NCBI RefSeq assembly: GCF_000447755.1
Contig: NZ_AUNE01000005.1
Coordinates: 1-64,000, forward strand
Length of the DNA stretch: 64,000 bases
Reading direction: 5' to 3'
Origin: Bacteriovorax sp. BSW11_IV
GTDB lineage: Bacteria; Bdellovibrionota; Bacteriovoracia; Bacteriovoracales; Bacteriovoracaceae
The notes beneath the pieces were generated by a model. The model was not told the DNA's origin. It made no database searches and saw only the letters and a list, made by a program, of their open reading frames with translations. The position numbers and the translations under genes were made by a program. Within the stretch, counting starts at the first letter, position 1. Each line of letters begins with the position of its first letter. Positions 240 through 63,280 of the stretch are shown in pieces.

Positions 240-255
240 TGGTCCTATGGGGGCA
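240..255. repeat. TGGTCC-family palindromic repeat, single copy
   Basis: TGGTCCTATGGGGGCA. It belongs to the 16-bp family seen in mnmE and downstream of parB. The right arm ends GGGGCA instead of GGACCA, as in one of the parB-side copies (20579-20594). It lies in the 5' region of the minus-strand exported-protein gene that starts at 199. Confidence 0.6.
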
Positions 256-5309: not shown

Positions 5310-7793
<2,484 letters not shown>

Positions 7794-10031: not shown

Positions 10032-10079
10032 TTGAACACCCCAATAGAAAGTTTAAAATGTTTTAGCTTCATTCAAACA

Positions 10080-10580
10080 GCAAATCAATACATGATTCTA
10101 TATATTTATATATATATATTAATCTTATTATATATTATAGGCCGTTGATAAGTTGAAAAACCTCTAAGTCCTTTTGTAATCGAGTTTTTGCGATTTTTCC
10201 AGTTATGAATAGTTCTAATAACTCTTCTATGCTGCAAATGCTCAATTCGGATATTCTTTTTTTCATCCACAATTTAAACAGTTATTCCCAAGTAATTCAC
10301 AAATTATTAGTAGATTAAAAATGTCGGCCTTTTAGAGGGCCAATAAATCCTATTTTTTTCAAAAGTTATAAACATTCTTTAAACATGTTGATAACTTTTT
10401 TTTTAACATCTCAAGATTACTGCCTCAAAGTTATTCACAATGTTGATAAGTATCCAAAATTGTATCTAAGTATCTATTAATAAAGAGATATGTTTTCCAC
10501 GGCCTCGTGTGGAAAACTTTAATGTTATAAACAAGGCCGTGGAAAACTAGGTTAAGTGATTAATCTTTGTGGGTAACTTT
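10080..10580. other. Probable chromosomal replication origin (oriC)
   Basis: The 624-bp gap between dnaN and dnaA has no gene. It has an AT block almost free of G and C (about 10096-10139), a good candidate for the unwinding element. Beyond it are many 9-mers one step or less from DnaA boxes: CGTTGATAA 10143, TCATCCACA 10263, TTATTCCCA 10282, TAATTCACA 10293, TGTTGATAA 10386 and 10441, TTATTCACA 10431, TTTTCCACG 10493, TGTGGAAAA 10508, CGTGGAAAA 10538 and TGTGGGTAA 10568. Only the box at 10431 matches TTATNCACA exactly. The dnaA-dnaN location is a common origin site. Promoters for dnaN must also lie here, but none was singled out. Confidence 0.85.
10492..10547. repeat. Nested inverted repeat of DnaA-box-like sites in oriC
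   Basis: GTTTTCCAC (10492-10500) pairs perfectly with GTGGAAAAC (10509-10517) across 8 bp. The longer GTTTTCCACGGCCT (10492-10505) also pairs perfectly over 14 bp with AGGCCGTGGAAAAC (10534-10547). One left arm can therefore form either of two hairpins. Each arm contains a TTTTCCAC(A/G) DnaA-box-like core. It sits at the dnaA-proximal end of the origin. Confidence 0.8.
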
Positions 10581-10589
10581 TTAACAAGC

Positions 10590-10616
10590 AAAAAAAAAGG
10601 GAAGCTTCCGCCTCCC
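10590..10616 (-). terminator. Rho-independent terminator of dnaA
   Basis: On the minus strand GGGAGGC and GCTTCCC form a 7-bp stem with one G-U pair and a GGAA-type loop, followed by a run of eight to nine T (complement of 10590-10598). It begins 39 bp past the dnaA stop and separates dnaA transcription from the origin. Confidence 0.85.
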
Positions 10617-10655
10617 TTTCATTGAGTTATTTACATGAATAAGTGAATAATTTGT

Positions 10656-13086: not shown

Positions 13087-14580
13087 GTGAATGGTGATCA
13101 AAAACGCACTTTTTTATTCGTTATTCTAGCAGGTCTTGTCCTGTTTACGTGGCAACTATTCTTTGCTCCACAAAAGACAAGCGTGACAGAATTAGCAAAA
13201 GAAAAGGTGATTGAAACTCGTAAAGTTGAAGCCGCTAAGAATGAAGTAGTCCAAAAGCAAGACACACAAATCGAAAATAATACTAATGTTGTTGTAGAAG
13301 AGCAGACAATCACTCTATCAAATGAGAATCACTCTATCACTTTTGACAATTTCCTTAGGATTAAAGATTTTAAAAATTCTAACTCACAATTTAATTTCGA
13401 AAGCACAATTGGACATCCTAAAGAATCTTTCAAAGTTCAAGTTGCCCCTGAGAAATCAAAGAATTTTAGAGATCTTCAATTTCAGTTTTCTAATATTACA
13501 GAAACGAGTGTCGAAGGTTTTGATCCTGCCCAAAATGTAAAAGTTATTCTAACTCTAACTGAAGATGGTCGAGTTAATCTTGGACTTAATTCTACAGCAG
13601 CATACAGTTATAGATTATTCTTTGGCGGTACAAATTCAGATGACGAAAAACATGAAACAAATAATCACAAGTCACGTGAGTTTGTTTTCTTCTCTTCAAA
13701 AGTATTACGTGCAAAAGTTGGTAAGACTGAAACAGGTGAAGGTGCTCTAAAGTGGGCCGGTGTAGATTATAATTACCACTTATTCTCAATGATCTTCAAA
13801 GATAAGCCTAATGCCGTTTTCAACGCTTATGAATCAGGAGATTTCTTTGTAGAGTTAACTACTCCTACAACAGCATTTAATTCAGATTTAGTATTTTTGA
13901 AAAAAGATTACGATAAGCTTATGGCCTTCGGAGACAAGCTTGAGCTTTCAGTTGATTTCGGTTTCTTTGGAATTATTGCTGTTCCAATTCTTCGTGGACT
14001 TCAATTTTTCTATAACTACGTAGGAAATTATGGTCTTGCAATTATCGTTCTAACTTTTGTTATCAGAATGTTAATGTTCCCTCTTCAATACAAGTCTTTC
14101 AAGAGTATGAAGAAGATGCAAAAAGTTCAGCCAGAACTGCAAAAACTAAGAGAAAAATTCAAAGATGATCCAGCAAGAATGCAAAAAGAGACAATGGAGC
14201 TTTTCAAGAAAAGCGGTGCCAACCCACTTGGAGGTTGTCTTCCATTAATTCTTCAAATGCCAGTTTTCTTCGCGTTCTATCAAGTTCTTTATAATGCAGT
14301 TGAACTTGTTGGAGCACCTTTCTACTTATGGATTTTCGACCTAAGTCAAAAAGACCCATACTATGTACTCCCTGTTCTTATGGGGATTGCTATGTTTGGA
14401 CAAACTAAGTTGAATCCATCTGCTTCTGCTGATCCTAATCAACAAAAGATTATGTACATCATGCCATTGATCTTTTGTTTTATGATGAAAGATCTACCTG
14501 CAGGTCTTAACCTTTATATTTTTGTTTCAACTGTTTTTGGTATTGCTCAACAGTTATACGTTTATAAATCAGCTGAATAA
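13087..14580 (+). CDS. yidC: Membrane protein insertase YidC/Oxa1 (GTG start)
   Basis: Inserts inner-membrane proteins, alone or with SecYEG. The first membrane helix (RTFLFVILAGLVLFTWQLFF) is followed by a periplasmic beta-sandwich domain and the conserved C-terminal core: a membrane segment (YGLAIIVLTFVIRMLMFPLQ), the basic loop FKSMKKMQKVQPELQKLREK and GGCLPLILQMPVFFAFYQVL. The frame is open from a GTG at 13051, but the GTG at 13087 has an AAGGAG Shine-Dalgarno 9 bp upstream and places the first helix at the true N-terminus, giving 497 residues. The stop overlaps the mnmE start by one base. Confidence 0.95.
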   Translation: MNGDQKRTFLFVILAGLVLFTWQLFFAPQKTSVTELAKEKVIETRKVEAAKNEVVQKQDTQIENNTNVVVEEQTITLSNENHSITFDNFLRIKDFKNSNSQFNFESTIGHPKESFKVQVAPEKSKNFRDLQFQFSNITETSVEGFDPAQNVKVILTLTEDGRVNLGLNSTAAYSYRLFFGGTNSDDEKHETNNHKSREFVFFSSKVLRAKVGKTETGEGALKWAGVDYNYHLFSMIFKDKPNAVFNAYESGDFFVELTTPTTAFNSDLVFLKKDYDKLMAFGDKLELSVDFGFFGIIAVPILRGLQFFYNYVGNYGLAIIVLTFVIRMLMFPLQYKSFKSMKKMQKVQPELQKLREKFKDDPARMQKETMELFKKSGANPLGGCLPLILQMPVFFAFYQVLYNAVELVGAPFYLWIFDLSQKDPYYVLPVLMGIAMFGQTKLNPSASADPNQQKIMYIMPLIFCFMMKDLPAGLNLYIFVSTVFGIAQQLYVYKSAE

Positions 14581-16067
14581 TGATTTTTTACGATGATAAG
14601 CCCATAATTGCATGTTCAACTGGCACTCTGTCAAACACAGCAATTGGGCTTATTCGTCTCTCTGGATTTAAATCTCTTTCTGATTTAAAAGAATTCTTCA
14701 GTACAGATATTTCAAATTTAAAACCAAGATATGCCCATTACACAAATATTCTTAGTGGCGCAGTTGTTTTGGATAGCATTGTCGTGACTTATTTTAAGGG
14801 TCCAAACTCTTATAATGGGGAAAACATTCTTGAACTTGGTGTTCACGGTAATCAAATCAATATTTCTCGAATTATAAGATTATTTATCGACTCTGGTAAA
14901 TTTAGGGCCGCTCACGAGGGTGAATTTACGTATAGAGCGCTTTTAAATAAAAAGCTTACACTTGCCCAGGTTGAAGGCCTTGACTTGCTTTTAAATGCCA
15001 ATTCTGGCCTTATGCTGCAACAAGGATTATCGACTCTTCAAGGCGCACTCTTTGAAGAGTACACAAAGCTTTATGATCTCTACATGAAATTGAAGTCAGC
15101 TATTGAGATTAATATCGATTTTGCTGAGGATGTAGGGGAGGATGAGTCGGCTGCATTTTTAAAGCGCTCATTCAATAGTTTTTTCACTTTGATTAAGTCA
15201 TTGCATAACAGAACAATTGGAAATGTTAATAGTCTACAATCCCCAGAAATCGTACTGGTTGGTCAGACTAATGCGGGAAAGAGTTCTTTATTCAATTTAC
15301 TCTTAGACAACAACCGCTCCATTGTTTCAAATATCGCTGGGACAACTCGCGATTATGTAAGTGAATATGTATTTATTGATGATGTAAATTATAAGCTTGT
15401 CGATACTGCTGGTATTCGTGAAACAGAAGATTATGTAGAAAAGATCGGTATCGATAGAACTTTTGAAGTTTTAAGAAGAGCTTTTTTTAAAATTTTGGTT
15501 ATAAATCCTCTTGAAACAGATTATAACGAATTCAATAAACTTCCATCTGATATTGTTTTTGATTATTTATTTATCACGCATGCAGATGCTGAAAAGATCG
15601 ATTACAAAGCCGTTTTGACTAAGATTCCCAAGTTTAAAAAAGGTGTGTTCTGCTCATTAAATTCTTCTGGTCCTATAGAACCAGAATATTTTTTTGGTCC
15701 TATAGAACCACAAAATGATGTAGATAATAATGGTCCTATGGGACCAGTTGAAAAAGTTGGTCCTATAGAACCAGCATCTGTTTTTGGTCCTATAGAACCA
15801 GTAATCGCATTGAAGAGCGATATTTCATATAAATTCAAAGACTTAACTGTTTCTAATCCGATACTACTCGATAGGCATCGTGAGTCAATAAAAGACATTT
15901 ATAGTAAATCTGTTTATTTTCAAGAACTTATGTCTGAAGTGGATGATATCGCCATTCTCTCGTCTGAGATGAATGTTCTTGGAGTTTCCGTTGCACAACT
16001 AATTGGAATTATTAGACCAGAGGATGTTTTAAATAATATCTTCTCTAATTTCTGTATTGGTAAGTAG
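14580..16067 (+). CDS. mnmE: tRNA modification GTPase MnmE with an in-frame palindromic-repeat insertion
   Basis: With MnmG it makes the cmnm5 group on U34 of certain tRNAs. The protein has an N-terminal folate-binding domain, a helical domain and an inserted G domain: P-loop GQTNAGKS (about 227-234), IAGTTRDYV, DTAG, and the catalytic C-terminal tail CIGK. The usual G4 motif NKxD reads THAD (333-336). Residues 364-407 hold five copies of GPIEP (one GPMGP) encoded by a 16-bp palindrome; these add about 40 residues to the usual 454 and sit just after the G domain. No frameshift is seen and the catalytic end is intact, so the protein is probably functional. Confidence 0.93.
   Translation: MIFYDDKPIIACSTGTLSNTAIGLIRLSGFKSLSDLKEFFSTDISNLKPRYAHYTNILSGAVVLDSIVVTYFKGPNSYNGENILELGVHGNQINISRIIRLFIDSGKFRAAHEGEFTYRALLNKKLTLAQVEGLDLLLNANSGLMLQQGLSTLQGALFEEYTKLYDLYMKLKSAIEINIDFAEDVGEDESAAFLKRSFNSFFTLIKSLHNRTIGNVNSLQSPEIVLVGQTNAGKSSLFNLLLDNNRSIVSNIAGTTRDYVSEYVFIDDVNYKLVDTAGIRETEDYVEKIGIDRTFEVLRRAFFKILVINPLETDYNEFNKLPSDIVFDYLFITHADAEKIDYKAVLTKIPKFKKGVFCSLNSSGPIEPEYFFGPIEPQNDVDNNGPMGPVEKVGPIEPASVFGPIEPVIALKSDISYKFKDLTVSNPILLDRHRESIKDIYSKSVYFQELMSEVDDIAILSSEMNVLGVSVAQLIGIIRPEDVLNNIFSNFCIGK
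15668..15800 (+). repeat. Five TGGTCC-family palindromes inside mnmE
   Basis: TGGTCCTATAGAACCA occurs at 15668-15683, 15695-15710, 15758-15773 and 15785-15800. TGGTCCTATGGGACCA occurs at 15731-15746. The starts are 27, 36, 27 and 27 bp apart, all multiples of three, so every copy is read in the same frame as G-P-I-E-P (or G-P-M-G-P). The first copy is part of a longer 22-bp near-palindrome reaching from TTC to GAA. The intervening 11 or 20 bp are not conserved. Confidence 0.9.
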
Positions 16068-16121: not shown

Positions 16122-16137
16122 TGTTCCACGTAGAACT
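16122..16137. promoter_or_regulatory. parS-like site 1 (imperfect)
   Basis: TGTTCCACGTAGAACT differs at two positions from the perfect palindrome 28 bp downstream. It lies in the mnmE-mnmG gap. It is a likely ParB binding site given the parAB genes 2.6 kb downstream. Confidence 0.65.
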
Positions 16138-16149
16138 TTTTTATTCTTT

Positions 16150-16165
16150 TGTTCCACGTGGAACA
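16150..16165. promoter_or_regulatory. parS site 2 (perfect palindrome)
   Basis: TGTTCCACGTGGAACA is a perfect 16-bp palindrome. It matches the known bacterial parS consensus TGTTTCACGTGAAACA at all but the symmetric pair at positions 5 and 12, and equals the core of the Pseudomonas sites. It ends 10 bp before the mnmG ATG, so bound ParB could also affect mnmG expression. Confidence 0.88.
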
Positions 16166-18023: not shown

Positions 18024-18679
18024 TGAAAGAATTTGCAAAACAATATCTGGCAATACTAACTGGTAGGCTGGCAGGACTTAACTTAACAAGAATTGAATCA
18101 GAAGAAGACTTTTATATGAAGCAGATTGTTGATTCAGTTCTACCTTTGGAGCAGAGTGATGTATTTGTCGAGGCCCTGCAGAGAACTGGTGTCCATGTTG
18201 ATGTAGGGTTCGGTGGAGGTTTTCCATTACTACCAATTGCTAAAGCTGTACCCGAGTTAAAGTCAGTTGGATTTGAAGCAAGAGGTAAGAAGGCAAAGGC
18301 GGTTCAATCTATTGCTGATGAACTTGGTCTTACAAATGTTAAAGCTCTTCACCAACGTGTAGAGAATGTCTACTTTGACTGCGATGCTGTTGTAACATTG
18401 AAGGCCGTTGGTAAAGTTGAAGACTTTCTTCCTTTGTTAATTTCAGATAAGAATTTATACGTGTTCTTCTACAAAGGTCCCAACTTTTATGAACTAGAGA
18501 ATTTAGAAAAGATCATGAGGTATTGGGAACTAATAGAAGAGAAGTACTATGATCTACCTGGTACAGAAGGACGTATGTTAGTTGGATTCAAAAACAGAAA
18601 TGTTCTACGTGGAACATTAATCAAAAGATTACAAAAAAATAAGCAGAAAGACCTTGTCAAACTCACTGACTTACTTTAA
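18023..18679 (+). CDS. rsmG: 16S rRNA (guanine527-N7)-methyltransferase RsmG
   Basis: Methylates G527 of 16S rRNA with S-adenosylmethionine. It is 218 residues. The SAM site is DVGFGGGFPLLPIAKAVPEL (residues 56-75; the family usually has DVGSGGGFPGIP), followed by the acidic loop VGFEARGKKAKA. It overlaps the mnmG stop by one base and precedes parA by 49 bp, the classic gidA-gidB-parA-parB order. A parS-like site lies within its 3' end (18601-18616). Confidence 0.92.
   Translation: MKEFAKQYLAILTGRLAGLNLTRIESEEDFYMKQIVDSVLPLEQSDVFVEALQRTGVHVDVGFGGGFPLLPIAKAVPELKSVGFEARGKKAKAVQSIADELGLTNVKALHQRVENVYFDCDAVVTLKAVGKVEDFLPLLISDKNLYVFFYKGPNFYELENLEKIMRYWELIEEKYYDLPGTEGRMLVGFKNRNVLRGTLIKRLQKNKQKDLVKLTDLL
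18601..18616. promoter_or_regulatory. parS-like site 3 (inside rsmG)
   Basis: TGTTCTACGTGGAACA differs by one base from the perfect site at 16150. It is inside the rsmG coding end, 110 bp before parA, so the match has survived as codons N-V-L-R-G-T. Confidence 0.72.
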
Positions 18680-18728: not shown

Positions 18729-19589
18729 ATGGCTAAAATTATTGCTATGATGAACCAAAAAGGCGGGGTTGGTAAGACAACTTCGGCCATTAATCTTGCT
18801 GCTTGTTTAGCAGTTGCTGAGAAGAGAACATTAATCATTGATCTTGATCCTCAGGGGAATGGTTCTGTTAGTGTTGGTTTAGACTCAGCGCAGCATACTG
18901 CGTGCAATATTTATCATGCACTTATTGGTGAAGCCAATATTAAAAATGCTATTTATAAAACTGAACTACCATACTTTGATATCTGTCCATCTGATAACAA
19001 TCTATCTGGTGCTGAAATTGAACTTGTAAGTTTATTTGCAAGAGAAGCGAAACTAAAAGTCGCTCTAATGGAAGTTTCTGACGATTATGATTTTATCATT
19101 ATCGATTGTCCTCCATCACTTGGTCTGCTTACAGTTAATGCTTTAAATGCAGCTGATACATTTATTGTTCCTATGCAAACAGAATATCTTGCAATGGAAG
19201 GACTTGCTCAGCTTGTGAATACAGTGAAGCTTATCAAAGCTTCATTAAATCCAAGACTAGAAATGGAAGGTATCCTTCTAACTATGTTTGATGCACGTTC
19301 ATCACTTCACAAGCAAGTTGCTGGTGAAATTAGAAAACACTTTGCAGACAAAGTTTTTGAAACAGTTATTCCAAGAAACGTTAAGCTTGCTGAATGTCCA
19401 AGTTTTGGTAAGCCAATTATTCTTTACGATATTGAATCAAAAGGCAGTGAAGCCTATTTAGCATTGGCCAAGGAATTAATTCTAAGAAGTAGAGCACAGG
19501 CCGTTAATGTCGCAAACACTCCAGTTCAAAGAGAAGTGCCTCCGGCAATTCCTTCGACACATGAGAGTTTTAGCCAACAACAACTGTAG
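18729..19589 (+). CDS. parA: Chromosome-partitioning ATPase ParA
   Basis: Deviant Walker ATPase that moves ParB-parS complexes after replication. It is 286 residues. The deviant Walker A is QKGGVGKTTS (residues 10-19), Walker A' is LIIDLDPQGNGS and Walker B is FIIIDCPPSLG. A GGGGG-type Shine-Dalgarno lies about 7 bp before the ATG. The tail of about 25 residues is Pro/Ala/Gln-rich and not part of the fold. It is 15 bp upstream of parB. Confidence 0.95.
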   Translation: MAKIIAMMNQKGGVGKTTSAINLAACLAVAEKRTLIIDLDPQGNGSVSVGLDSAQHTACNIYHALIGEANIKNAIYKTELPYFDICPSDNNLSGAEIELVSLFAREAKLKVALMEVSDDYDFIIIDCPPSLGLLTVNALNAADTFIVPMQTEYLAMEGLAQLVNTVKLIKASLNPRLEMEGILLTMFDARSSLHKQVAGEIRKHFADKVFETVIPRNVKLAECPSFGKPIILYDIESKGSEAYLALAKELILRSRAQAVNVANTPVQREVPPAIPSTHESFSQQQL

Positions 19590-19604: not shown

Positions 19605-20549
19605 ATGGCCAAGAAAGTTGCTCTAGGAAAGGGAATTGCTTCACTAATTGGTGGATCAAATACTGATTACACTAATGCATTGAAAGCAAAGATGGCATTA
19701 GATGAAGAGTTCACTGCTGAACAAGCAGAAGCATCTGTCGTTGCTGAGCCAACAAAAAAAGAAGAAGATCATTCTCCATATATGATTGATGTTGCTTCGA
19801 TTATTACTAATCCGAATCAACCAAGAAAAATCTTTAAAGAAAAAGAGTTAGAAGAACTTTCTGAATCGATTAAAGAAAATGGAATTATTCAGCCGTTGAT
19901 TGTAGTAAAAACGGATGAAGGTTTTGAACTAGTCGCAGGGGAAAGAAGACTTCGTGCTGCTAAAAGAGCAGGTTACGAAAAAGTTCCAGTTGTAATTAAA
20001 AGAGCTACAGATAAAGACAAGATGGTAATGTCTATTATCGAAAACGTTCAACGTAGTGACCTAAACTGTGTTGAAGAGGCCCTAGCTTATTATCAATTAA
20101 TGGATGATTTCAAACTTACTCAAGAAGAAGTTGCAAAGAAACTTGGAAAAGAAAGATCTACAGTAGCTAACTTTCTACGAGTACTAAAACTTCCAAGAGA
20201 CGTAATTGAATTACTTCAAAAAGAAGAATTATCATTCGGTCACGCTAAGTTACTTGCGGCAGTTAAAGAAAGAGAGAAGTGTATTCGTGTAGCACATGAA
20301 GCAGCTCTTAAGAATTTATCTGTTCGTGAAACTGAGAAACTTTTGAAGGCCAGAGTTGTCGCTAAAAAAGAAGCTGATGGAAATGTATATTTCGAAGAAA
20401 AGCTTGATCAGTATAAGCAAAAGCTTGAACAAAAAACTGGATTCCACTTTGCTATCAAATCGAATAAAAAGGGTGGCGGACAAGTTATGTTGAACTTCAG
20501 CAACGAAGCTGAGTTTAATGATATTTACGAGTTTCTTTTAAATAGATAA
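19605..20549 (+). CDS. parB: Chromosome-partitioning protein ParB
   Basis: CTP-dependent clamp that loads at parS and spreads. It is 314 residues. It has a long variable N-terminus, then the ParB/Srx domain with ITNPNQPRKIF and the CTPase box AGERRLRAAKRAG. The helix-turn-helix is KLTQEEVAKKLGKERSTVANFLRV (in two parts), followed by SFGHAKLL and a C-terminal dimerisation domain. The matching parS sites are at 16122, 16150 and 18601. It is followed by a cluster of four TGGTCC-type palindromes. Confidence 0.95.
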   Translation: MAKKVALGKGIASLIGGSNTDYTNALKAKMALDEEFTAEQAEASVVAEPTKKEEDHSPYMIDVASIITNPNQPRKIFKEKELEELSESIKENGIIQPLIVVKTDEGFELVAGERRLRAAKRAGYEKVPVVIKRATDKDKMVMSIIENVQRSDLNCVEEALAYYQLMDDFKLTQEEVAKKLGKERSTVANFLRVLKLPRDVIELLQKEELSFGHAKLLAAVKEREKCIRVAHEAALKNLSVRETEKLLKARVVAKKEADGNVYFEEKLDQYKQKLEQKTGFHFAIKSNKKGGGQVMLNFSNEAEFNDIYEFLLNR

Positions 20550-20556
20550 ACTCATA

Positions 20557-20651
20557 TGGTCCTATAGAACCACTGAACTGGTTCTATAGGGGCAAAATAT
20601 AAAGTGGTCCCATAGGACCAAAAAATCAAAAAAAGTGGTCCTATCGGACCA
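20557..20651. repeat. Cluster of four TGGTCC-family palindromes between parB and the bactofilin gene
   Basis: TGGTCCTATAGAACCA (20557-20572), TGGTTCTATAGGGGCA (20579-20594), TGGTCCCATAGGACCA (20605-20620) and TGGTCCTATCGGACCA (20636-20651). The first two are near-exact reverse complements separated by CTGAAC, so they can also fold into one hairpin of 14-16 bp. The last extends to an 18-bp near-palindrome and ends 10 bp before the GAGGG ribosome site of the next gene. No T-run follows, so none is a typical terminator. Confidence 0.9.
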
Positions 20652-20670: not shown

Positions 20671-21009
20671 ATGGCCAAGGATAAAGGTGAAATTTCAGCG
20701 ATCATTGAAGAGGGATGTAAGTTTGAAGGAAATCTTTCTTTTAACGGTGTTGCTCGTATTGCTGGAATAGTAAACGGAAGTATCTTTTCTAATGACACAG
20801 TTATCGTGTCAGAGGGTGCCATTATTAACGCAGATATCAACGCAAACGTCATTCTAATCAGTGGTACGGTTAAGGGTAATGTAAAGGCCAGCTCAAGGGT
20901 TGAAATCATTAAACCGGCAAGATTTGAGGGCACAATTACAACACCAAGTTTAATTGTTGAGGAAGGCGTTATTTTCCACGGTACGACTAAGATGCACGAC
21001 AGCAAATAG
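20671..21009 (+). CDS. Bactofilin family protein
   Basis: Cytoskeletal polymer-forming protein of about 112 residues made almost wholly of short beta-strand repeats with a right-handed helix pattern (GNLSFNGVARIAGIVNGSIF, SEGAIINADINANVILISG, GTVKGNVKASSRVEIIKPAR). The ATG at 20671 has a GAGGG Shine-Dalgarno. The frame is open from a GTG at 20635, but that part is the palindromic repeat and was rejected as coding. Bactofilins anchor ParA and ParB in Myxococcus, so its position right after parAB suggests a role in chromosome segregation or cell shape; this is inference. Confidence 0.88.
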   Translation: MAKDKGEISAIIEEGCKFEGNLSFNGVARIAGIVNGSIFSNDTVIVSEGAIINADINANVILISGTVKGNVKASSRVEIIKPARFEGTITTPSLIVEEGVIFHGTTKMHDSK

Positions 21010-21152: not shown

Positions 21153-21596
21153 ATGGATACTATTATTGGTATTTTTAAGTCACTTGGTGTTGACAGCACT
21201 GTTTTCACACAATTTATCATCATCTGTATTCTTTATCTCGTTTTGAGAAATTTACTTTTCGGAAAGCTTCAAGAAGTTCTTGAACTTAGAGAAGGTAAAA
21301 CGACTAAGCTTGAAGAGAATGCAAATAAGAAATTTATTGAAGCTGAAAATCTAGCTAAGTCATACAAAGAAAAAATCAACAATGCGCAGTCTGAAGCATT
21401 TTCAAAACTAAGCAAAGTAAAAGAAGAAGTTCTTGGTGTTGAAAAGCAAAAGCTTAAAGCAGAAGAAGCAAAACTTAATTCTGAAATTGAAGCGAAAGCA
21501 CAACAATTTGCGAATGAAGTTGAGCAAAAGAGACAAGAAGTTCTTGCTAATGCAGACGCTCTTGCAAACGATCTAATTACTAAACTTACAAATTAA
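21153..21596 (+). CDS. atpF: F0F1 ATP synthase subunit b (b'-type, first copy)
   Basis: Peripheral-stalk subunit that ties F1 to subunit a. It is 147 residues: one N-terminal membrane helix (TQFIIICILYLVLRNLLFG, about 19-37) and then a long charged helix (LQEVLELREGKTTKLEENAN onward) forming the dimeric coiled coil. It is first in the plus-strand operon b'-b-delta-alpha-gamma-beta-epsilon. Two b-type genes in tandem suggest a heterodimeric stalk; which one deserves the name atpF is not decidable here. Confidence 0.85.
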   Translation: MDTIIGIFKSLGVDSTVFTQFIIICILYLVLRNLLFGKLQEVLELREGKTTKLEENANKKFIEAENLAKSYKEKINNAQSEAFSKLSKVKEEVLGVEKQKLKAEEAKLNSEIEAKAQQFANEVEQKRQEVLANADALANDLITKLTN

Positions 21597-21609
21597 TAAT
21601 AGGTGGGTC

Positions 21610-22134
21610 ATGAAGAAGACATTACTAGTTTTATCTATTCTTCTATCTAATGCATACGCTGCTGGTGGTGGAGGTCATTTAACAGATCTTGTTATCCCAG
21701 CTCTTAACTTTGTTGTATTCGCTGGAATTATCTTTCTTGCTATCAAAGGGCCAATGAAGAAAATGTTCAGTGAAAACGCTGTTAAAGTTAAAGAACTTTA
21801 TACATATGCTGAAGGTAAAGATAAAGAAGCTCAAATCAAACTTGATATGTATGAAAAGAAAATGAATTCATTACAATCAGAGATTCAAAAAATTAACGAA
21901 GACATTCAAAAAGATGAAATTGTATTCAAGGAAAATGTAGCTAAGGAAACTGCTGCTCAACTTGAAAAAATGCAAAAAGATTCAATTCTTAAACTAGAGA
22001 GTGAAAAAAATTCTCTTCTTAAGAATCTAAATGAAGCTCTAGTTAATGAAGTAATTACTAAAGCAAAAAATAAAATTTCAGAAAATAAAGATTACAAAGA
22101 AAAAGCAACGAAGAAACTTGTTGCTGAACTTTAA
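21610..22134 (+). CDS. atpF: F0F1 ATP synthase subunit b (second copy, with signal-peptide-like start)
   Basis: The 174-residue protein begins MKKTLLVLSILLSNAYAAGG, which resembles a signal peptide, and then has the membrane helix PALNFVVFAGIIFLAIKG. A long Lys/Glu-rich helix follows (KEAQIKLDMYEKKMNSLQSE onward), as expected for the second stalk. The start YAAGG resembles that of AtpB. It lies 13 bp after the first b gene and 13 bp before atpH. Confidence 0.85.
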   Translation: MKKTLLVLSILLSNAYAAGGGGHLTDLVIPALNFVVFAGIIFLAIKGPMKKMFSENAVKVKELYTYAEGKDKEAQIKLDMYEKKMNSLQSEIQKINEDIQKDEIVFKENVAKETAAQLEKMQKDSILKLESEKNSLLKNLNEALVNEVITKAKNKISENKDYKEKATKKLVAEL

Positions 22135-22147
22135 TAATGGGTGAGAG

Positions 22148-22687
22148 ATGAAAGAACAAAACGTTTCTAAGGCCTACGCTAAAGCAATCATCGAACTTGG
22201 TAAAGAATCAAAGATTGATGTTGCTAAAGAACTTACAGACCTAAGTGAACTCATTAATAAATCTGGCGATCTTGAGACGCTACTTTTCTTAGACGTGTTT
22301 ACTGTTGAAGAAAAATTAGATGTGGCGAAAAAAGTTATGGCCAAGATTAACACTTCAGATCTTGTTCAAAAGTTTGTTGCGTTCCTTATCGGTGAAAAGA
22401 GAATGAACCTTTTCCCACTGGTTTTCAAAGACGTGATCGTTATTGATGATCATGAGAAAGGTTTCCTAAGAGGAACAATTGAAGGAAGTGAAGATCAAGT
22501 ATCTGACGAATTCAAAAACAAAATGATAACTTATCTAAAAGATAAAGCTGGAATCAGTGCTGAACTTAAGTATGTAAAGAACGAGTCAATCACTGCTGGT
22601 TACAGAGTAACTGTTGAAGATCTACAACTAGATGCTTCATTAGATAACCAATTAGAAAAATTTAAAGAAACAGTATTAAATAATTAA
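22148..22687 (+). CDS. atpH: F0F1 ATP synthase subunit delta
   Basis: Sits on top of F1 and holds the b stalk. It is 179 residues. The N-terminal helical domain begins VSKAYAKAIIELGKE, which matches the family start (AxxYAxALxxLA). The C-terminal part has KNESITAGYRVTVEDLQLDA, the conserved G-x-x-V-x-x-x-D-x-x-x-D-x-S pattern in relaxed form. It precedes atpA by 27 bp. Confidence 0.92.
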   Translation: MKEQNVSKAYAKAIIELGKESKIDVAKELTDLSELINKSGDLETLLFLDVFTVEEKLDVAKKVMAKINTSDLVQKFVAFLIGEKRMNLFPLVFKDVIVIDDHEKGFLRGTIEGSEDQVSDEFKNKMITYLKDKAGISAELKYVKNESITAGYRVTVEDLQLDASLDNQLEKFKETVLNN

Positions 22688-22714
22688 TTTCTTAACCACG
22701 AGTAGAGGTACAAG

Positions 22715-24223
22715 ATGTCAATGAACCCAGAAGAAATTACGAGCATCATTAAGGATAGAATTGCTAATTTCGAAACAAAATTAAAAGTTGATGAAGTTGG
22801 AACAGTTCTAACTATCGGTGACGGTGTTGCCCGTGCTTTCGGTCTTAAAAACGTTATGGCCGGTGAGCTAGTAGAATTTGAAACAGGAACTAAAGGAATG
22901 GTTCTAAACCTAGAAGCAAACAACGTAGGTATTGCTGTACTAGGGGAAGACCCAAATATTAGAGAAGGATCAACTGTAAAAAGAACTGAAAAAATCGTTG
23001 AAGTTCCAGTTGGTGACGCTCTTCTTGGTCGCGTAGTTAACGCTATTGGTGAGCCTATTGATGGTCAAGGTGAAATCCGCGCAACTGAGTACAGACAAGT
23101 TGAAATTAAAGCTCCAGGTATTATTGCAAGAAAGCCTGTTCATGAGCCAATGCAAACTGGTCTTAAAGCAATCGACTCTATGATTCCAATTGGCCGTGGT
23201 CAGCGTGAGCTTATCATTGGTGACCGTAAAACTGGTAAGACAGCTGTTGCACTAGATACGATTATCAACCAAAAAGGAAAAGATGTTGTTTGTATCTACG
23301 TTGCTGTAGGACAAAAGCAATCAACAGTACGTCAAGTACAACAAAAACTAAAAGATGCTGGTGCTCTTGATTATACAATCATCGTATCTGCAACTGCTTC
23401 AAATACAGCTCCTCTTCAATTCCTTGCTCCATATACAGGTTGTACAATGGGTGAGTTCTATAGAGATGCTGGTAAGCACGCGCTTATCATCTATGATGAC
23501 TTAACAAAACAAGCACAAGCTTATAGACAGATGTCACTTCTTCTTAGACGTCCACCAGGCCGTGAAGCCTTCCCAGGGGACGTATTTTATCTTCACTCAA
23601 GACTTCTAGAAAGAGCTTGTAAGCTTTCTGATGATCTTGGAGCAGGTTCACTAACTGCACTTCCAGTTATTGAAACTCAAGAAGGTGACGTTTCTGCATA
23701 TATTCCAACAAACGTTATCTCTATTACTGACGGACAGATCTTCCTAGAGTCAGACCTTTTCAACTCTGGTATCAGACCAGCAGTAAACGTAGGTCTTTCA
23801 GTTTCTAGGGTAGGTGGTTCTGCTCAGATTAAAGCTATGAAAAAAGTTGCTGGTACTCTTCGTCTAGATCTAGCTCAATACCGTGAACTTCAAGCATTCG
23901 CTGCTTTCGGTTCAGATCTTGATGCTACAACTAGAAAGCAATTGAGCAAAGGTGAGAGACTAGTTGAACTTCTTAAGCAAGGTCAATACCAACCAATGGA
24001 CGTATTAGACCAAGTAGCTGTAATTTACGCTGCAACTAAAGGTCTTCTAGACGAAGTTCCTGTAGCAAGAATTAGAGAATGTGAAAAAGATCTTCTTGAG
24101 CACCTAAACTCTAAGCACGCTTCACTTATGACAGACGTAAGAGCTGCAAAAGTAATCGAAGGTGCTAATGAAGGTAAGCTTGTAGAAATCATTAAAGAAT
24201 TCGTAGCTACTAAAAAATACTAA
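22715..24223 (+). CDS. atpA: F0F1 ATP synthase subunit alpha
   Basis: Non-catalytic nucleotide-binding subunit of the F1 hexamer. It is 502 residues, normal length. The P-loop is GDRKTGKT (about 169-176) and the alpha signature is [17 protein letters not shown] with the catalytic arginine in SVSR. The N-terminal [11 protein letters not shown] is typical. It is followed by a stem-loop and then atpG. Confidence 0.97.
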
Positions 24224-62140: not shown

Positions 62141-63280
62141 ATGGATAGAAAAATTCAAGATATTTTAGAAAGTATCAAAAATCCAAATAGTGGTGAGACG
62201 CTAAAAAGCGAAGGTCGTATTCAAGAAATTAAGGCCGATAAAGATACTCTGTCTTTTACATACGAGCGTGATGGAATCACTCCTGAACAAAAAAGAATTA
62301 TAGAAGATATAATTATCAACGAGTTAAAGTCTTTTTATAACGAAGATAAGATTACAGTGAAAACTGTATCAAAAAACTCTGCTGATGTTATGGCAACTAA
62401 GCCTCAAGCGGCTCCTGCACCAAAAGCACAGATTAAAAGTGGACATGGTCCTGTAGGGGCAACTAAAAGACGCGTTCCCGGTGTTAAAAATGTCATTGCG
62501 GTTTCATCAGGTAAAGGTGGAGTTGGAAAGTCTACTGTTACAGTCAACCTTGCATATGCTTTGAGAAATCTCGGGAAGAAAGTCGCAATTCTAGATGCTG
62601 ACGTTTATGGGCCATCGGTTCCGATGCTTCTAGGAAAAAGAGATGCTAAGCCAGCGGCCACTGATGAAAAGAAAATCATTCCAGTTGAAAGCAATGGTGT
62701 TGGATTTATCAGCTTTGGATTGTTCATCGGTGAAGATGATGCAGTTATATGGCGCGGACCAATGCTTGGTGGTGTTTTAAATCAATTTTTATTCGACGTT
62801 AATTGGGGAGAACTTGATTACCTTCTCATAGATCTACCTCCAGGTACTGGCGATATGCAATTATCTATGGTTCAGGCCACAGAAGTTGACGGGGCCCTTG
62901 TTGTATCTACACCACAAGACGTTGCCCTTTTGGATGCGAGAAAAGGTCTTAATATGTTCAAAAAAGTAAACGTACCAATTATTGGTATGGTTGAAAATAT
63001 GAGCTATTTCGTACCAGACGATGCACAAGATAAGAAATACTATATCTTCGGTGAAGGTGGAGTAGAGAAGGCTGCAACTGCACTTGAAACAAGATTTTTA
63101 GGTCAAGTTCCAATGGAAATTGCACTTAGAGAGAGTTGTGATAAAGGCCAACCATATATGGCCAATTCTAGCTATGAAGGTCGTGCAGTATGGAATGCAT
63201 ATATGAGTCTTGCAAAAAATTTAGAAGATGGTGACAATAGTAAAAAAGGTTTTTTCAAAAATATTTTTAAGAGAAGTTAA
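62141..63280 (+). CDS. mrp: Mrp/ApbC-family P-loop ATPase
   Basis: Iron-sulfur carrier ATPase family. It is 379 residues. The N-terminal domain (about 1-80) resembles a degenerate DUF59. A Pro/Ala-rich linker leads into the deviant Walker A SSGKGGVGKSTVTVNLAYAL (about 124-143), LDADVYGPSVPML and LPPGTGDMQLSMVQ. The usual CxxC pair just after VENMS is absent: the stretch reads VENMSYFVPDDAQDKKYYIF, so bridging of an Fe-S cluster is doubtful. The linker has a TGGTCC-like repeat. Confidence 0.88.
   Translation: MDRKIQDILESIKNPNSGETLKSEGRIQEIKADKDTLSFTYERDGITPEQKRIIEDIIINELKSFYNEDKITVKTVSKNSADVMATKPQAAPAPKAQIKSGHGPVGATKRRVPGVKNVIAVSSGKGGVGKSTVTVNLAYALRNLGKKVAILDADVYGPSVPMLLGKRDAKPAATDEKKIIPVESNGVGFISFGLFIGEDDAVIWRGPMLGGVLNQFLFDVNWGELDYLLIDLPPGTGDMQLSMVQATEVDGALVVSTPQDVALLDARKGLNMFKKVNVPIIGMVENMSYFVPDDAQDKKYYIFGEGGVEKAATALETRFLGQVPMEIALRESCDKGQPYMANSSYEGRAVWNAYMSLAKNLEDGDNSKKGFFKNIFKRS
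62446..62461. repeat. Degenerate TGGTCC-family repeat in the mrp linker
   Basis: TGGTCCTGTAGGGGCA differs by two bases from the copies at 20579 and at 240, and codes for G-P-V-G-A in the same frame as the mnmE copies (GGT CCT). Chance similarity is not excluded. Confidence 0.4.

Follow-up and report, generated by a model that had tools for sequence, protein, structure and literature searches.

The window, i.e., the whole 64,000-nucleotide stretch of DNA analysed (positions 1 to 64,000 of contig NZ_AUNE01000005.1 of Bacteriovorax sp. BSW11_IV), has a putative oriC between dnaN and dnaA, a gap in which oriC was likewise predicted in Halobacteriovorax (PMC5124646), followed by mnmE, the canonical parA and parB genes and a bactofilin gene. 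Five copies of a 16-bp palindrome, TGGTYCTATAGRACCA (hereafter P), are carried by mnmE, all in its reading frame. A second cluster of P lies after parB, and three canonical parS-like sites sit between the two clusters. The features of this neighbourhood are the following.

240..255, + strand: outlying P site, TGGTCCTATGGGGGCA
10032..10655, no strand: putative oriC (dnaN-dnaA gap), where DnaA-box-like 9-mers cluster
14580..16067, + strand: mnmE (495 aa), which hosts the array and retains P-loop, DTAGIR and C-terminal FCIGK; THxD replaces NKxD
15668..15683, + strand: P site 1 in mnmE, TGGTCCTATAGAACCA, read as GPIEP
15695..15710, + strand: P site 2 in mnmE, TGGTCCTATAGAACCA, read as GPIEP
15731..15746, + strand: P site 3 in mnmE, TGGTCCTATGGGACCA, read as GPMGP
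15758..15773, + strand: P site 4 in mnmE, TGGTCCTATAGAACCA, read as GPIEP
15785..15800, + strand: P site 5 in mnmE, TGGTCCTATAGAACCA, read as GPIEP
16122..16137, + strand: canonical parS-like site, TGTTCCACGTAGAACT
16150..16165, + strand: canonical parS, TGTTCCACGTGGAACA
18601..18616, + strand: canonical parS-like site, TGTTCTACGTGGAACA
18729..19589, + strand: canonical parA (ParA1)
19605..20549, + strand: canonical parB (ParB1), recognition helix GKERSTVAN and GHAK kept
20557..20572, + strand: P site in the parB/bactofilin gap, TGGTCCTATAGAACCA
20579..20594, + strand: P site in the same gap, TGGTTCTATAGGGGCA, one GT-type and one CC-type half
20605..20620, + strand: P site in the same gap, TGGTCCCATAGGACCA
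20636..20651, + strand: P site in the same gap, TGGTCCTATCGGACCA
20671..21009, + strand: bactofilin gene, 3' of the second P cluster; the name follows the parB-bactofilin order reported for Bdellovibrio

The copies in mnmE start at 15668, 15695, 15731, 15758 and 15785 and are translated as GPIEP (four times) and GPMGP (once), at approximately residues 363-407 of 495. This agrees with an earlier sequence-only reading of the window, which had noted five in-frame copies with these peptides at spacings of 27, 36, 27 and 27 bp. The exact 16-mer that it placed after parB is indeed found at 20557, followed by three variants (20579, 20605 and 20636) before the bactofilin gene. Most copies are imperfect palindromes (7/8 base pairs). 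Allowing up to three mismatches on both strands, the window has 17 matches to P, for 0.39 expected and a maximum of three among 100 shuffles. Across the whole genome (3.65 Mb, 59 contigs), matches to the perfect palindrome with at most one mismatch occur only in the mnmE and post-parB clusters; the genome-wide tests of P are pattern searches. A sister species has TGGTTCTATAGGGGCA about 15.4 kb before its mnmE array, which matches the distance of the outlying site at 240. There is also a weak P-like site, TGGTCCTGTAGGGGCA, at positions 62446-62461, about 42 kb beyond parB, for which we found no conserved counterpart.

Distribution and anatomy of the palindrome

P is a conserved DNA element, restricted to the host family and, there, to the origin region. 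At one mismatch or fewer it is present in 120 of the 129 genomes of the order, all of one family, and in 71 of the 73 high-quality ones; all 36 same-family relatives have at least one match at two or fewer mismatches. The 22 genomes of other families essentially lack it: five single matches (two or fewer mismatches) were found there, and a reversed-pattern control gives more. Matches to the degenerate pattern TGSYYCBATRGRRSCA in nine well-assembled genomes are almost confined to the origin region; nearly every P site of well-assembled genomes is about 13-25 kb or less from the origin, next to canonical parS. The one-contig genome G003 (3.43 Mb) has 9/9 P sites inside 13 kb. Beyond mnmE, relatives carry P inside parB, mnmG, dnaA and yidC, in the parB/bactofilin gap, in intergenic DNA and, in locus L015, between parA and parB. 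Genus g5 has only degenerate P sites.

Two loci differ in layout around mnmE. In G061 (L035, oriented positions 6542-6669) the array lies just past the mnmE stop codon and before mnmG, with two 29-bp spacings, and looks as if shifted out of the gene. In L060 (G059), approximately 2.3 kb of extra DNA lies between mnmE and mnmG.

The anatomy of P was analysed in 227 sites from 39 origin loci. Each site is made of two inverted 8-bp half-sites (TGGTCCTA, TGGTTCTA, TGCCCCCA, TGCCCCTA, CGGTCCTA and rarer forms), whose positions 3-4 vary as one unit, being either GT or CC. The pairing of the halves is uneven: 151 sites are GT/GT, 70 are CC/GT and just two are CC/CC. CC halves favour C at position 7. 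The centre of the site is CTATAG or a near variant, not the canonical parS core tGTTNCACGTGNAACa. Because GT-type and CC-type halves are combined, 76 of the 227 sites can pair as a stem on neither strand. These sites, together with the lack of a match to any Rfam family, led us to reject an RNA hairpin, structured RNA or terminator. The spacings within mnmE are mostly 24, 27, 30, 33 and 36 bp, and those outside mnmE include non-triplet values (22, 23, 26, 28, 29, 31, 32, 34 and 37 bp).

P copies were found in 34 of 37 complete mnmE genes. As the sequence-only reading had suggested checking among relatives, their number varies, from 1 to 11 per carrier. Nearly all share one frame (138/142, with two in each other frame). 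For most variants, TAG falls in one of the other two mnmE frames; the two copies in frame 1 are TATGGG-type sites, free of TAG. We searched the MnmE proteins for the peptide class independently of the DNA and found 141 matches in the insert. These peptides (e.g., GPIEP, GSIGP, GPMGA, APIEP) differ between and within species, tracking the DNA variant. Their codons are nearly fixed: the first-position Gly is always GGT (36% elsewhere in these genes) and Ile is almost always ATA (23% elsewhere in these genes). Since the codons are fixed, the peptide varies and RNA pairing is not kept, selection on a double-stranded DNA site with two separately read halves would be the simplest account.

This speaks to two other explanations of the array. 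One is selection on a GPIEP-like peptide of MnmE, to which the single frame of 138 of the 142 copies would lend some weight. That frame bias has to be set against the TAG that most variants bring into one of the two other frames, the constancy of the DNA while the peptides and not the codons change, and the identical DNA in non-coding sequence and in other genes, so that we give this explanation next to no credence. The sequence-only reading had taken the DNA to be primary, and had proposed that the same peptide written with different codons in relatives would point to the peptide instead. The outcome was the opposite, as P DNA encodes 140 of the 141 peptides and is present in further genes, in other frames and between genes as well. 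The other explanation sees in P a palindromic repeat that moves or expands, comparable to Rickettsia elements, REP or BIME, and that entered mnmE in frame. Rickettsia palindromic elements are longer than P and dispersed, and are read in frame inside conserved genes. The variable copy number and the locally duplicated look of the arrays fit such a repeat, and P shares with the Rickettsia elements that palindromic DNA is read in frame in conserved genes. However, P is a 16-bp putative binding site, its close matches are near the origin only, genome after genome, with nearly none elsewhere, it occupies the same places family-wide and is linked to one promoter (see below), and a third of its sites (76/227) form a stem on neither strand. 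We thus regard a mobile repeat as very improbable. The likeness to Rickettsia elements drawn in the earlier reading does not hold up for an element confined to the origin, at conserved places family-wide, with the form of a protein site and a link to ParAB.

Within MnmE, the insert follows the degenerate G4 motif of the G domain and precedes the C-terminal helical part, and a tolerant loop is a plausible description of the host site. A structure prediction from a two-sequence alignment gave a pLDDT of 31 and was set aside. MnmE proteins of the host family have THxD or SHxD instead of the G4 motif NKxD and retain DTAG[ILV]R and the C-terminal FCIGK; that of L015 retains NKSD.

A second ParA-ParB pair and its promoter

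A search with ParB1 revealed a second ParB relative, ParB2, throughout the host family. Its gene lies directly 3' of parA2 (contig C18 of G000, approximately 21296-23015), and in assembled genomes the two genes are 300-390 kb from the origin. ParA2 orthologs are present in 118 of the 129 genomes and in 72 of the 73 high-quality ones. The high-quality genome G026 was rejected as a counter-example lacking ParB2: its parA2 match hits a contig end, so the absence is uninformative. Apparent stop codons in the parB2 of G032 were dismissed, the match being open up to residue 256. Outside the host family, no ParB2 ortholog was found in approximately 110 genomes, the best E value of about 1e-16 being the level of an ordinary ParB. 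A search of plasmids returned only distant ParB relatives (below 60% identity) and no clear source. P and ParAB2 may be shared because they arose once, and the correlation between them therefore counts few independent events.

ParA2 has the deviant Walker motif KGGVGKT and matches Pfam AAA_31 at 5e-43. ParB2 matches ParB_N at 3e-16 and HTH_ParB at 0.02, below its cut-off, and has the motifs GERRFRA and ENS.RE; its best solved relative is Noc. The features of partition systems are found together: a ParA with a deviant Walker motif, a ParB with an N-terminal domain of the CTP-binding type (ParB_N) and a helix-turn-helix (HTH) region in the same operon, and multi-copy palindromes near the origin. 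Across 31 loci the recognition segment of ParB2 (SERKI..LGISKSEVHR) hardly varies, and other residues stand in place of those that contact parS (residue roles in ParB and Noc specificity from PMC7383237). The ParB1 of the host family keeps a canonical DNA-contact region, including the equivalents of R173 and G201. A third ParB_N-like protein, of 310 aa, is encoded at L038:2184-3116 and has apparent relatives in many genomes of the family.

P is tied to the promoter of parA2. When the 8-mers upstream of this gene were counted blindly, TAGGACCA, a P half-site, came up. Half-sites were found in the promoter at 22 of 71 loci, and in several genera they overlap or follow the -10 element of parA2. 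The first 31 loci have 13 half-sites in 4.65 kb of parA2 upstream DNA, against seven in 111.7 kb of surrounding DNA; in a control, 3 of 400 permuted motifs did as well, owing to the conservation of promoter words in general. The 40 held-out loci gave 12 in 6 kb against nine in 112.5 kb (p about 7e-13). The signal is limited to certain lineages, with one of 20 loci from additional, more distant genera having it. No full P site scores above 9 bits at the parAB2 locus, where half-sites only are found.

The arrangement of the half-sites varies. In g14 two inverted half-sites are separated by a 9-10-bp spacer, with TGGTCC-class and TGCCCC-class halves interchanging at one place; in g24, g62 and g66 the two are direct repeats 12 bp apart. 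In L041 and L136-L139, an inverted pair (9-10-bp spacer) lies over a terminator-like hairpin before the -35 box of parA2; the classes of half-site exchange there, the position staying constant. A pattern for the direct-repeat arrangement, searched genome-wide in 14 genomes, gave 12 matches. Nine of them are no more than about 60 bp upstream of parA2, and in the remaining three the second half is non-canonical.

Candidate readers of P and comparison with known systems

The confinement of P to the origin, the matching distribution of ParAB2, the helix of ParB2 and the half-sites in the parA2 promoter make P most likely a parS-like site. We consider it probable that it belongs to a family-specific second ParABS-type system with ParB2 as its reader. 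Both this identity of the reader and the function of the complex are what we infer to be most likely from the sequences. Some observations count against this. In g5, ParB2 and its helix are retained while P is degenerate. A full P is lacking at parAB2, and so are half-sites in most of the distant genera.

The same observations bear on whether P is read by something else. Another family-specific DNA-binding protein, one that regulates or organises the origin and controls parAB2 as well, could bind P and have ParB2 as a target, since half-sites in the parA2 promoter indicate regulation and not the identity of the regulator, and g5 keeps ParB2 despite its degenerate P. We consider such a protein unlikely: 16-bp palindromes are what the protein family of ParB2 binds, ParB2 has a near-invariant recognition helix of its own, and the paired-half-site operator occurs almost only at parA2 in the 14 genomes, so that autoregulation fits better than a wider regulator. 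An alternative, relaxed parS for the canonical ParB1 is suggested by the length and symmetry of P, its location among parS sites and the 10/16 positions that it has in common with TGTTCCACGTGGAACA. This is improbable given that P lacks the CACGTG core, ParB1 keeps the R173- and G201-equivalents that go with parS, nearly all loci keep canonical parS and sister families have ParB1 without P. Just as improbable are transcriptional operators for the mnmG-rsmG-parAB-bactofilin genes with no centromere-like role. Both mnmG and the bactofilin gene do have P clusters upstream, and the parA2 half-sites are operator-like, but the arrays hold up to 11 full sites within coding sequence and their places differ by genus (dnaA, yidC, mnmG, parB, after mnmE), with proximity to the origin as the sole commonality.

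With ParB2 as reader of a parS-like site, the system might work as follows. P would be a double-stranded protein-binding site of two inverted 8-bp half-sites. Within 5-10 kb of oriC, dimers of ParB2 would bind the P arrays of mnmE, of the DNA following parB and of nearby places, loading onto the origin region, and ParA2 would act on the ParB2-P complex, giving a second handle that moves or holds the origin. ParB2 would also bind single or paired half-sites in the parA2 promoter and thereby regulate its own operon. The mnmE gene would be a host only, its variable stretch after G4 accepting 1-11 copies in the frame in which the TAG of CTATAG is not read as a stop. A broader proposal, on which we are evenly divided, is that the family runs two ParABS-type systems at one origin: parS with ParB1, and the P array in mnmE and beside parB with a distant, self-regulated ParAB2. 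The second system may serve growth as a multi-chromosome filament, if division in these bacteria resembles that of Bdellovibrio. If true, a family probably including predators would have acquired in its evolution a second centromere, with a ParB specificity of its own and a coding gene as scaffold. This would be a natural case of divergence in ParB/Noc specificity, would bear on why one chromosome needs two partition handles at the same origin, and would show arrays of DNA sites constraining a conserved tRNA enzyme. In the literature searched, we found neither the P motif string nor a description of a ParB paralog in the host family.

The proposed system resembles the chromosomal ParABS/parS systems of Bdellovibrio bacteriovorus (PMC10547168), Caulobacter and Bacillus in having an operon of ParA and a ParB-family protein, and 16-bp palindromes that cluster near oriC, some of them inside genes. 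It differs in that it is an extra system beside the canonical one, its site has no CACGTG, its genes are 300-390 kb from P, the arrays are dense and it is found in one family only. For B. bacteriovorus HD100, a single parB and two parS sites are reported, along with two orphan parA genes that have no parB next to them (PMC10547168, PMC7186360); a search of Bdellovibrio-like loci for other origin palindromes found none. Noc and its NBS sites, which act in nucleoid occlusion in Firmicutes, are also a ParB paralog of changed specificity with its own 16-bp palindrome on the same chromosome. However, NBS are scattered around the chromosome (PMC7383237, PMC4331003, PMC8429893) and P is confined to the origin; ParB2 has its own ParA; and both the HTH residues and the site differ, the ParB2 helix being ISKSEVHR where the specificity residues of Noc are QKKR (PMC7383237), and P not being of the NBS type.

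A second ParAB in sister families (L104-L107 and L110) also comes with a multi-copy 16-bp palindrome, GGTCGCCGCGGCGACC. Its palindromes differ from P in sequence and lie directly upstream of its parA at a spacing of approximately 50 bp, not at the oriC/mnmE locus. The GGTCGCC(RY)GGCGACC arrays of f8, f12 and f15 were rejected as counterparts of P, as they belong to this unrelated second ParAB. They are found at L104:6570-7252, L105:6352-7113, L106:6134-6778, L107:9481-9971 and L110:8771-9067, and are possibly parS of a chromid or plasmid type.
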